Shown piece by piece: positions 12,884 to 40,951 of a DNA stretch of 64,000 nucleotides (position 1 is the first letter of the stretch; the number at the start of each line of letters is the position of its first letter). Both the position numbers and the translations under genes were made by a program. The notes beneath the pieces were generated by a model, which saw nothing but the letters and a program-made list of their open reading frames with translations, searched no databases and was not told where the DNA came from. Source of the stretch: Leifsonia sp. CL147 (GTDB taxonomy: Bacteria > Actinomycetota > Actinomycetes > Actinomycetales > Microbacteriaceae); contig NZ_FOTM01000006.1 in the NCBI RefSeq assembly GCF_900114565.1, positions 74,247 through 138,246 on the forward strand, given 5' to 3'.

Positions 12884-13256
12884 CCATCGAGTCCGCGGAG
12901 ATTGCACGCCGCCGCGGCGTGTCGCGTGCAGTCTGTGCGGACTCGATGCAGGGGCGCGATGCGGGGACGCAACGACTCGAGGTGGGGCGCAACGGCGAGT
13001 CCGCAGAGGTTGCACGCCGACGCGGCGTGTCGCGTGCAGTCTGTGCGGACTCGATGGAGGTGCGCAATGCGGGGGTGCAACGACTTGATGTGGGGACGCA
13101 ATGCCGAGTCCGCAGAGATTGCACGCCGACGCGGCGAGTCGCGTGCAATCTGTGCGGACTCGATGGAGGGGCGCGATGACTCGAGGGGGCGCAACGGCGA
13201 GTCCGCAGAGATTGCACGTCGAGGCGGCGTGTCGCGTGCAATCTGTGCGGACTCGA
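12884..13256. repeat. Tandem block of four P1 palindromes
   Basis: Four long-armed palindromes at about 12884-12948, 12996-13055, 13105-13163 and 13198-13256. Shared blocks are CGAGTCCGCAGAGATTGCAC on the left and GTGCAATCTGTGCGGACTCG on the right, with a variable GC-rich centre. The linkers (for example GGGGACGCAA and GGTGGGGCGCAACGG) are also related, so the whole unit of about 93-110 bases has been duplicated in tandem. The block fills most of the 440-base gap between the hydrolase leader ORF and the MFS gene. No protein is credible here; in-frame translations are all repeats. Confidence 0.9.
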
Positions 13257-13272
13257 TGGAGGGAGGGACGGC

Positions 13273-35789: not shown

Positions 35790-36257
35790 ATGAACCGCCG
35801 CCTTGTCGCGCTGCCGCTCGCCGCAGCCCTGCTGCTGGGCGTCGCGCCCGCCCTCACTGCCTGCAGTTTCCAGACGGTCGTGAAGAACGTGACGGGAGGC
35901 AATGTCGATCTCGGCGGCGCATCCGTGCCCACGGACTTTCCGAAGGCGGTCCCGCTCGCACCCGGCTCCGTCGTCTTCGGCGCGGCGCTCGGCTCGGGCG
36001 CGGACAAGGTCTGGAATGTGACCGTGAAGGTCGGCGGCGCCGATGCGTACACCGCGATCGGCAAGCAGCTCACCGACGCCGGCTTCACGGGCGAGTTCGG
36101 CACGAAAGCGCCCGACGGAGGCGGAACCGGCACGTTCACCAACGGAACCTACGGCGTGCTCGTCGTCGTCACGGACGCGGGCAGCAACGGCTGGGTCGCC
36201 AACTACTCCGTGTCGAAGGGATCGGCGCCCACCCCGACGCCGACCCCGAGCCCCTGA
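35790..36257 (+). CDS. Hypothetical secreted lipoprotein
   Basis: A 155-residue protein with a signal peptide (MNRRLVALPLAAALLLG) and lipobox-like ALTACS, Cys27. The mature region (VPTDFPKAVPLAPGSVVFGA ... AYTAIGKQLTDAGFTGEFGT) looks like a small alpha/beta domain and ends in a Pro/Thr tail (APTPTPTPSP). No family is recognised. Monocistronic. Its stop lies inside a 13-base DNA repeat. Confidence 0.75.
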   Translation: MNRRLVALPLAAALLLGVAPALTACSFQTVVKNVTGGNVDLGGASVPTDFPKAVPLAPGSVVFGAALGSGADKVWNVTVKVGGADAYTAIGKQLTDAGFTGEFGTKAPDGGGTGTFTNGTYGVLVVVTDAGSNGWVANYSVSKGSAPTPTPTPSP

Positions 36258-36315
36258 AACAGGCCCCCGAAACAGTCCCCTGAAACAGGCCACCGAAACA
36301 GGCCCCTGAAACAGG
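36251..36315. repeat. 13-base direct repeats at converging gene ends
   Basis: About five degenerate copies of CCCCTGAAACAGG run from the last codons of the lipoprotein gene to the end of efeB. The repeat supplies the lipoprotein stop codon. Confidence 0.8.
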
Positions 36316-38866: not shown

Positions 38867-39730
38867 TCAGGAGGCGATCGGCGCCTGTGGTGCGGAGGCC
38901 TCGGCAGCCTTGGCCACCGGTGCCGTCCGGCCCGAGGAGCGGTGCTGACGGACGTAGAAGTACCCGACGATCGCGAGGTAGCCGATCCAGGCGATCACCT
39001 GGAGCCACGTCGGCGACGGGTTGAAGTTGAGGATGCCGGCGGCGAGCGTTCCGTACCAGCTGGAGGACGGGATGGCGCCGCTGATGTCGTAGGCGTGGGC
39101 GCCGCCGGCGATGATGCCGGCCTCCTGCAGATCGCCCAGGCCGTAGGCGAAGACGCCGGCGGCGACGAGGATGAGGAAGGCTCCGGTCCACGTGAAGAAC
39201 GCGCCGAGGTTGATCTTGACCATGCCGCGGTAGAGCAGGACGCCGAGCACGGCGGCCGTGAGCAGTCCGAGCAGCGCGCCGACGGCCGGCTCCCAGCTCC
39301 CGCCGGTGCTGGAGACGGTCGCCCAGACGAAGAGCGAGGTCTCGATCCCTTCCCGGCCCACGCTGAGCATCGCGAGCACCACGACGCCCCAGCCGGCGCC
39401 GACGAGGGCGGAGTCCAGACGCTCGTGAAGAGTGGATTTCATGGTGCGGGCGGTCTTGCCCATCCAGAACACCATCCACGTCACGAAGCCGACCGCGACC
39501 AGGGACAGTGTGCCGCCGAGGATCTCCTGCGCCTCGAAGCTCATGCCGTACGGCCCCCAGGTGAGCAGGGCCCCGATGGCGAGCGGGATGACGAGGGCGA
39601 CGCCGACGCCGATCCAGAGCTTGGAGAGCACGTCGGTACGGCCGAGCTTGACCACGTAGGCGACCAGGATGGTGACGATGAGCGCCATCTCGAGGCCTTC
39701 GCGGAGGCCGATCAGGTAGTTCGCGAGCAC
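38867..39730 (-). CDS. efeU: Ferrous iron permease EfeU (FTR1 family)
   Basis: A 287-residue membrane protein with about seven helices. The two REXXE iron-binding motifs are REGLE (about residues 9-13) and REGIE (about 122-126). The start is GTG 39730. First gene of efeUOB; efeO follows after 40 bases. The DtxR/IdeR-type box upstream implies expression under iron limitation. Confidence 0.95.
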   Translation of the reverse strand: MLANYLIGLREGLEMALIVTILVAYVVKLGRTDVLSKLWIGVGVALVIPLAIGALLTWGPYGMSFEAQEILGGTLSLVAVGFVTWMVFWMGKTARTMKSTLHERLDSALVGAGWGVVVLAMLSVGREGIETSLFVWATVSSTGGSWEPAVGALLGLLTAAVLGVLLYRGMVKINLGAFFTWTGAFLILVAAGVFAYGLGDLQEAGIIAGGAHAYDISGAIPSSSWYGTLAAGILNFNPSPTWLQVIAWIGYLAIVGYFYVRQHRSSGRTAPVAKAAEASAPQAPIAS

Positions 39731-39760
39731 AGAGAACCTCAGAGGTATCGGGGGCGAATG

Positions 39761-39779
39761 TTGGTAAGGCTAACCTTAC
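39761..39779. promoter_or_regulatory. DtxR/IdeR-type iron box upstream of efeU
   Basis: Read on the minus strand, TAAGGTTAGCCTTACCAA closely matches the DtxR/IdeR consensus TTAGGTTAGCCTAACCTAA. It lies about 30-50 bases upstream of the efeU start, over the probable promoter. Iron-loaded DtxR would repress efeUOB. Confidence 0.75.
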
Positions 39780-39862
39780 TTTTCGAGCGTAGATCACTCT
39801 TCGCCGCCTGTCCAGCCGCGATCTCACGGCCCGCTGCCGGGTCGCCCGGATAGGATGCGGGG

Positions 39863-40258
39863 ATGCTCAGCCGGATCGTCAGCGGAGTCCTCCTCGTGCT
39901 CGCCGGGGCCGTCTTCGGCGCGATCGGGACCGTCGCGCACCAGAGCTCCGTCACCTGGGGCGTCGCGATCCCGCTCGGGCTCATCGGTTCGCTCGCAGCC
40001 TTCGCGGCCCTGCTCGTCGGCCTCCGGCTGCTCGGACACAGCCGCCTGCCGGCGCTGCTGGCCGCGCTCGGCGCGATCGTGCTCATCCTGCTGTTCACCC
40101 AGGAGAGCGCGGGAGGCTCTGTGCTCATCCCGAACAACCTGCCCGGGATGGCATGGCTGGCCGGTCCCATCCTGATCGCGGCGATCGTGGTCGCCTGGCC
40201 CGACGTCCGTGGCCACCGCCCGCCCGCGGCCGACCCCCGCGACCCGAACACCTACTGA
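39863..40258 (+). CDS. Hypothetical four-helix membrane protein (possibly DUF6113)
   Basis: A 131-residue protein with four hydrophobic segments (starting IVSGVLLVLAGAVFGAIGTV) and a short proline-rich C-terminal tail (RPPAADPRDPN). It resembles the small membrane proteins often found upstream of the fdxA-dapC pair in Microbacteriaceae (DUF6113); that assignment is from memory of gene order, not a search. Function unknown. Confidence 0.72.
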   Translation: MLSRIVSGVLLVLAGAVFGAIGTVAHQSSVTWGVAIPLGLIGSLAAFAALLVGLRLLGHSRLPALLAALGAIVLILLFTQESAGGSVLIPNNLPGMAWLAGPILIAAIVVAWPDVRGHRPPAADPRDPNTY

Positions 40259-40307
40259 GCCCCGCCCGCCCCGCCTCCCGGCGTGCCCCGGCTGCCCCGC
40301 CGATAAC

Positions 40308-40534
40308 GCACATTCGTCACGAATGTGCACCTACTGCGCGCTGAACCGCACATTCGTCACGAATGTGCACCTACCGCGCGCTGAACTGCACATTCGTGAC
40401 GAATGTGCGCCTCCCGCGCGCTGAACTGCACATTCGTCACGAATGTGCACCTCCCGCTCGGGGTCGCCTCAACGCGGGATTCGTGACGAATGTGCACTTA
40501 CGAGTCGCCTAAGTGCACATTCGTGACGAATGTG
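40308..40534. repeat. Array of 21-bp palindromes with 40-bp period
   Basis: Six copies of a palindrome with core CACATTCGT(C/G)ACGAATGTG. Complete units are at 40308-40328, 40348-40368, 40388-40408, 40428-40448 and 40514-40534; a truncated unit is at about 40478-40495. The first four are exactly 40 bases apart. The 19-base spacers are also related (CTCCCGCGCGCTGAACT), so this is a tandem repeat and not a CRISPR. It occupies the gap upstream of fdxA, ending about 97 bases before its start. Each palindrome could bind a dimeric protein on nearly the same helix face. Confidence 0.93.
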
Positions 40535-40630
40535 CGAACCGCGGAGGGGGCGCTGCCGTCGAGGGCGCACCCCTCCCCGTGCGGCGTCTAAGCTAGGAGT
40601 ACCGCTCTTCGTGAAGGGATCCGAACCACC

Positions 40631-40951
40631 GTGACCTATGTCATCGCTCTCCCGTGCGTCGATGTGAAGGACAGGGCCTGTATCGACGAGTGCCCTGTCG
40701 ACTGCATCTACGAGGGCGAACGGTCGCTGTACATCCACCCCGACGAGTGCGTCGACTGCGGCGCCTGCGAACCGGTCTGCCCGGTCGAGGCGATCTACTA
40801 CGAGGACGACCTGCCCGAGGAGTGGAAGGACTACTACCGCGCGAACGTGGAGTTCTTCGACGACATCGGCTCGCCCGGCGGCGCCTCGAAGATCGGCGTG
40901 CTCCAGAAGGACCACCCGGTCGTCGCAGCGCTGCCTCCGCAGGCGCACTGA
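40631..40951 (+). CDS. fdxA: Ferredoxin (7Fe, 3Fe-4S/4Fe-4S)
   Basis: A 106-residue bacterial ferredoxin of the FdxA type. Cluster ligands are visible in CVDVKDRACIDECPVDCIY and CVDCGACEPVCPVEAI; the long C-terminal tail (EWKDYYRANVEFFDDIGSPG) is typical of mycobacterial 7Fe ferredoxins. An electron carrier. The start is GTG 40631. It precedes dapC by 2 bases, a common actinobacterial pairing, and follows the palindrome array. Confidence 0.96.
   Translation: MTYVIALPCVDVKDRACIDECPVDCIYEGERSLYIHPDECVDCGACEPVCPVEAIYYEDDLPEEWKDYYRANVEFFDDIGSPGGASKIGVLQKDHPVVAALPPQAH

Follow-up and report, generated by a model that had tools for sequence, protein, structure and literature searches.

Several short palindromes of about 13–16 bp that occur in multiple chromosomal copies, i.e. 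matS, the Noc sites and parS, are single palindromes read by dimeric proteins such as MatP and ParB. REPs are placed at gene ends, and some ISs prefer REPs. The element described here from Leifsonia, which we file as a dispersed palindromic repeat of a new variety, resembles matS, Noc sites and parS in being a dispersed palindrome of similar size (a dimeric reader being only predicted in its case), but consists of doublets with a 40-bp spacing and a phased A/T pattern that lie at gene ends. In Pseudomonas, REPIN ends are 16-mers, which in group I lie 71 bp apart, with complementary bases that permit hairpin formation and with clusters that adjoin RAYT genes, as set out in the part of PMC3116915 used here. 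The Leifsonia element comes closest to REPINs in its layout, in that a short conserved sequence occurs in scattered intergenic doublets, inverted and at a fixed distance around a spacer, with some tandem clusters; it differs in that its cores are themselves palindromes or near-palindromes, lie 40 bp apart, show triplet pairing at about chance level and occur without RAYT (in 0 of 28 genomes), so that it is a REPIN-like layout with hairpin pairing that is partial at best. CGTC-type REPs seem to lack a dedicated transposase according to the part of PMC3733652 consulted, and a word search of its main text returned no mention of Actinobacteria or Leifsonia. GTAG- and CGTC-tagged REPs, as presented there, are likewise small palindromic repeats, but the Leifsonia cores begin with ATT and end with AAT (ends that the loose search pattern itself demands) and bear no terminal tag.

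The window analysed here, i.e. the whole stretch of 64,000 nucleotides from Leifsonia sp. CL147, contains in front of the ferredoxin gene fdxA an array of palindromic cores (table 1). The original prediction, made from the letters alone, had described five full copies and one partial copy of a 21-bp palindrome, the first four exactly 40 bases apart, with conserved spacers and a central base that flips between C and G. This anatomy is borne out: the palindrome GCACATTCGTSACGAATGTGC is complete at 40308, 40348, 40388, 40428 and 40515, the sixth copy differs by two mismatches within the 17-bp core, the distance of 40 bp is broken once, by 47 bp, the spacers within the array are alike and the central bases run C, C, G, C, G, G. 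Of the predicted limits, 40308 to 40534, the start stands and the end has to be corrected to 40535. Further doublets start at 40352, 40392 and 40479, the first two of them overlapping and the last on its own. Six palindrome matches with up to three mismatches lie in the window, whereas 100 dinucleotide shuffles averaged 0.04 and never gave as many as six.

Table 1. Features in and around the array, in window coordinates.
Feature	Position	Strand	Remarks
Upstream ORF, 131 aa	39863..40258	+	weak DUF6113 match, below Pfam cut-off
Whole array	40308..40535	.	six palindromic cores
Core 1	40310..40326	.	exact 17-mer, centre C
Core 2	40350..40366	.	exact, centre C, 40 bp from core 1
Core 3	40390..40406	.	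exact, centre G, 40 bp from core 2
Core 4	40430..40446	.	exact, centre C, 40 bp from core 3
Core 5	40477..40493	.	two mismatches outside 13-bp core ATTCGTGACGAAT, 47 bp from core 4
Core 6	40517..40533	.	exact, centre G, 40 bp from core 5
Example 53-bp doublet	40312..40364	.	13 + 27 + 13
TAAGCTAG segment	40589..40596	+	kept in 8/10 usable aligned relatives; positioned like fdxA −10 box
fdxA, ferredoxin	40631..40951	+	Fer4 match; 95 bp from array

The array represents an extended form of an intergenic element that is widespread in Leifsonia. The unit of this element is a 53-bp doublet of a 13-bp palindrome (ATTCGTSACGAAT in the CL147 genome), 27 bp and a second palindrome, and in relatives it occurs mostly as plain doublets. 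In the 3.78 Mb genome of CL147 the 17-bp core is found exactly 270 times (reversed control 0) and the 21-mer at 330 places with no more than three mismatches, and 331 core pairs match a loose pattern in which ATT-N-G-NNN-C-N-AAT occurs two times at a distance of 40 bp. With this pattern the doublet was detected in 23 of 28 Leifsonia genomes in 4 to 331 copies and in none of the other five (reversed control 0 in all), the 331 doublets of CL147 standing against 0–108 in the other 27. Among 398 genomes of the family, 11 match, i.e. nine of the ten Leifsonia sampled and two of 388 others, which have one site each with spacers resembling plain hairpins; and a search for the exact core in 149 genomes, including that of CL147, gave 14 positives, every one a Leifsonia. 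Since the array finds no match in plasmids or phages and the exact doublet pattern none in viral contigs, a phage, plasmid or viral origin was rejected. A comparison with Rfam 15 returned 13 weak matches, all under the gathering scores. Among the literature matches listed, titles and the openings of abstracts contain no account of this Leifsonia palindrome family, and matches to core strings are unrelated, judged by title.

The spacing of 40 bp is not confined to this locus. Among CL147 spacings of up to 200 bp, taken from the array in the window and 25 other array clusters (20 stretches of genome), 117 of 133 are exactly 40 bp, and across five species sets 292 are exactly 40, the next most frequent values being 35 (17) and 36 (12). 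Spacers are alike inside one CL147 array and differ among arrays. The scan of the genome for the palindrome, proposed along with the original prediction, uncovered many other copies, mostly behind stop codons at the loci read. A centromere-like role, which the prediction had also brought up, is unlikely because the arrays are scattered over many places in the genome.

Gene contexts were assigned with our own codon-based gene caller at loci chosen for holding the element. The 155 array clusters comprise 91 between convergent, 58 between tandem (149 in these two classes) and 5 between divergent genes, with one unplaced. None lies inside an ORF, while an earlier count with a looser core definition had two clusters inside low-scoring ORFs. 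Flanking stop codons lie most commonly at 10–14 bp (66 of 240), with 133 within −5 to 20 bp, a median distance of 17 bp and 33 at 100 bp or more; only 1 of 68 flanking start codons lies within 20 bp. When 400 kb of the genome G023 were sampled at even steps, the element was present in 4 of 64 convergent junctions versus none of 285 others (p 0.001). We consider it somewhat probable, judging from these sequences, that the element is double-stranded DNA read by a sequence-specific dimeric protein and serves most likely as a boundary behind stop codons.

The same location would suit a bidirectional terminator, i.e. a doublet whose RNA folds into a hairpin that halts RNA polymerase both ways. Besides the proximity to stop codons just given, the RNA of the array folds extremely well (z −13.8), so that a hairpin can form, and at one conserved junction compared by eye in 28 genomes, 7 have another long hairpin where 11 carry the cores (the remainder being 7 short junctions and 3 with another arrangement). 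Moreover, with cores masked, array-free convergent junctions in the G023 sample have a stem of at least 10 bp in 7 of 30 cases and array-bearing ones in 2 of 48 (p 0.023). This contrast is weak, however, as array-free convergent junctions of the array loci have such a stem in only 1 of 14 cases and much of the 110 nt considered is taken up by the arrays themselves. There is also no T tract, and a search for stem-loops followed by a T run, as in intrinsic terminators, found 0 sites in window positions 39700–40800, this array alone having been scanned. Together with the pairing and spacing data given below, this makes a terminator quite improbable in our estimate.

Among the 11 core-bearing copies of this junction, one has three cores at 20-bp steps, one has just one core, next to an IS at the end of a contig, and one is degenerate. 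At three loci (L187, L191 and L196), G020, G013 and G014 share the long hairpin CAGCTCCTGAGTT...AACTCAGGAGCTG at the junction that holds the doublet elsewhere.

Apart from the cores, the spacers themselves are patterned. In species other than G026 and G008 they carry two A/T triplets with nine mostly G/C bases between them. Counted from the dyad of a core, the centres of A/T triplets fall at about −5, +5, +14, +26 and +35. In G019 the A/T content at +13 to +15 is 98, 92 and 98%, the following positions being mostly G/C; it is weaker in CL147 (67, 66 and 43%). The left and right triplets, conserved as a class, show little complementarity: in G019 it amounts to 52, 45 and 58% versus 48, 43 and 54% in shuffled pairings, and pairing is around the shuffled level in five of seven species (G019, G023, G013, G018 and CL147). 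In G027 one of the three triplet positions (position 7) pairs above shuffles (65 versus 53%, reached by 38 of 500). Some other spacer positions do pair above shuffles, which is in favour of a terminator hairpin, i.e. position 6 in G013, G018 and G027 (reached by 14, 2 and 17 of 500 shuffles) and position 12 in G027, G023 and G019 (5, 17 and 35 of 500). Outer spacer positions also do so in G013 and G018, where two subfamilies in one genome would give the same result, and several positions in G026, a genome in which the spacer has a palindrome of its own. Against a terminator hairpin, the centres of the two cores in CL147 doublets are alike in 72 of 95 and complementary in 23 of 95 cases, the former count being inflated by tandem duplication. 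Asymmetric cores are mutually inverted in 33 of 46 doublets in G013, 27 of 36 in G018 and 20 of 36 in G027, a pattern that a hairpin would give as well.

Where spacings deviate from 40 bp, they peak at 25, 35–36, 45–47, 55, 65–67 and 75. This helical phasing reaches a maximum Rayleigh R of 0.585, matched by none of 2000 jittered sets, and an R of 0.565 (0 of 5000) without G023, the loci of which are partly orthologous to those of G019. By set, jittered sets as strong number 0 of 5000 for G026, 5 for G019 and 48 for CL147; in the small mixed set of other genomes phasing is not significant (1493 of 5000). Neither the 40-bp register nor the phasing has an evident role in an RNA hairpin. Taken together, these features seem more in keeping with double-stranded DNA that a dimeric protein reads on one face than with a hairpin of RNA or DNA. 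That a dimeric protein binds cooperatively, as put forward in the original prediction, thus gains support from the sequences, i.e. from a 40-bp register kept over unrelated spacers, A/T triplets about 10 bp apart, the phasing and the C/G flips.

An alternative that would also account for doublets at gene ends is a selfish, REPIN- or BIME-like doublet that is copied by a transposase via a hairpin and tolerated at gene 3′ ends, where REPs are found too. The two conserved ends with a spacer and tandem clusters match the description in the part of PMC3116915 used here, and inverted conserved ends at a fixed distance, the core–27–core arrangement, are present in 23 of 28 genomes. The presence of the element varies among species at one same junction, G013 has one spacer at two distant places (with two copies at one of them), and an IS of the CL147 genome targets cores as well. 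The Y1_Tnp family of RAYT transposases (PF01797), the only transposase family searched for, is however found in 0 of 28 Leifsonia genomes, with 5 of 14 control genomes positive, and the element was therefore rejected as a RAYT-driven REPIN. Triplet pairing at about the shuffled level in most species tested, differing spacers at most loci read in one genome, which is unlike recent copying, and the helical phasing, which copying leaves without explanation, also speak against a selfish doublet, and we regard it as unlikely. As for the IS, one of its ends was read in five copies in the CL147 genome; four of them (at L209, L211, L212 and L213, with L210 as the exception) directly abut or interrupt a core palindrome, and this IS seems to prefer core palindromes.

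Core and spacer types vary by species, and the 40-bp register recurs among them. Core types include ATTCGTSACGAAT, ATTTGGWCCAAAT and ATTTGCSGCAAAT as well as ATTCGTGCCGAAT and ATTTGCGCCAAAT, each of the latter two together with its complement; several retain their dyad via changes in both halves, and ATTCGTGCCGAAT and ATTTGCGCCAAAT are imperfect palindromes. In G026 and G008 the spacers mostly hold a 15-bp palindrome at +20, and such a +20 palindrome is present in 47 of 63 doublets in G026 and 4 of 9 in G009, but in 0 of 205 in G019, G023, G018, G027 and CL147. A tree of one locus requires three changes of the label, the clustering of which exceeds that of most shuffles (values as low in 13 and 9 of 500). 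Many orthologous junctions have the element in two or three species, which points to inheritance there rather than fresh scattering. An unusual site is a 53-bp doublet in G026 (L141:2941-2993), palindromic except for its centre base, between divergent genes; as a pointer to the gene of a regulator it was rejected, since the flanking proteins of 112 and 380 aa show no DNA-binding domain by eye.

Conservation within the unit is uneven. In 15 doublets matched between G019 and G023, cores differ at 8 of 390 positions, a figure biased downwards because the search pattern fixes 8 of the 13 core letters, matching demanded at least 17 of 27 like spacer positions and two doublets could share one partner. 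The flanking G/C boxes differ at 23 of 180 positions, the triplets at 13 of 90 (with the A/T class changed at 4 of 90 only) and the central positions at 43 of 135. This bears on a neutral minisatellite, i.e. lengthening of an old element into tandem copies that in CL147 would have no function beyond that of the ancestral doublet. Units inside an array are near copies with array-specific spacers, and the 331 doublets of CL147 exceed by far the 0–108 of its relatives, just as such lengthening would have it; but the cores remain exact or nearly so while spacers diverge, between species too, and the 40-bp register holds for the large majority of spacings. We regard this explanation of the tandem copies as very unlikely. 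A purely neutral minisatellite, which the original prediction had named as its refuting case, is unlikely for the core, kept across species as spacers change (with the bias just stated), though the lengthening of arrays in CL147 may itself be neutral.

The location in front of fdxA had suggested an operator controlling this gene, and a comparison of the region in relatives had been advised. In favour of an operator, the array ends 95 bp ahead of the fdxA start codon, but when the aminotransferase gene downstream of fdxA was compared with its surroundings at 80 loci of relatives, none had the array (a few of these loci end too soon to reach upstream of fdxA), two of them carrying one single palindrome match with two mismatches. 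In usable aligned relatives the array is missing in 10 of 10, with the TAAGCTAG segment near the fdxA start retained in 8 of 10. This segment, by its position a candidate −10 box of the fdxA promoter (a promoter scan found nothing), lies downstream of the array. Hundreds of copies elsewhere in the genome, at loci that when read are unrelated gene ends, also contradict an operator, which was rejected and which we hold to be highly improbable. The array is more plausibly assigned to the end of the upstream gene, despite the gap of 53 bp between the stop of the 131-aa ORF and the first 13-bp core, which is outside the common 10–14 bp.

How might a boundary of double-stranded DNA behind stop codons work? 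We infer a unit in which the two 13-bp palindromes have their dyads 40 bp apart and a third dyad lies halfway, at +20, in some species, and looks degenerate in the remaining ones. A sequence-specific protein would bind as dimers every 20 bp, i.e. about two helical turns, on a single face of the DNA, contacting the A/T triplets about 10 bp apart, and at this spacing neighbouring dimers would touch. Longer arrays could then nucleate a short nucleoprotein track, the cooperative filling of which behind stop codons would block or insulate against read-through and convergent transcription. Two candidates for the protein were rejected. Lsr2, common in Actinobacteria, occurs in 8 of 28 Leifsonia genomes and is missing from 20, including CL147, and its association with the doublet is not significant (p 0.12); ParB paralogues have counts without a matching pattern. 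It is possible, though short of probable, that all this amounts to a chromosome-wide gene-end boundary system, with strong–weak–strong dyads at 20-bp steps and a 10-bp A/T code read by a dedicated protein filament on one DNA face, and that the genome-wide concerted change of cores and spacers between species records the coevolution of this protein with dozens to hundreds of sites.

If a boundary of this kind exists, a bacterial genus marks many of its gene ends by a double-stranded DNA code with a recurrent register of 40 bp, which sets it apart from hairpin terminators and from REPs driven by RAYT. Should a protein indeed fill the tracks, the element would provide a countable and naturally varied test system, with 4 to 331 copies and several core types, for array formation by bacterial DNA-binding proteins, transcription block at convergent genes and protein–site coevolution.

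Other repeats are found in the same window. At 12888–13263, long palindromes, GAGTCCGCAGAGATTGCACG...CGTGCAATCTGTGCGGACTC, follow one another in a tandem array of their own at periods of roughly 93–108 bp, and a 13-bp tandem repeat, GCCCCTGAAACAG, lies at a gene end at 36250–36315. Directly upstream of a gene for an FTR1-family iron permease, positions 39759–39779 hold the palindrome-like sequence gttggtaaggctaaccttac, which we take to resemble an iron-repressor box.
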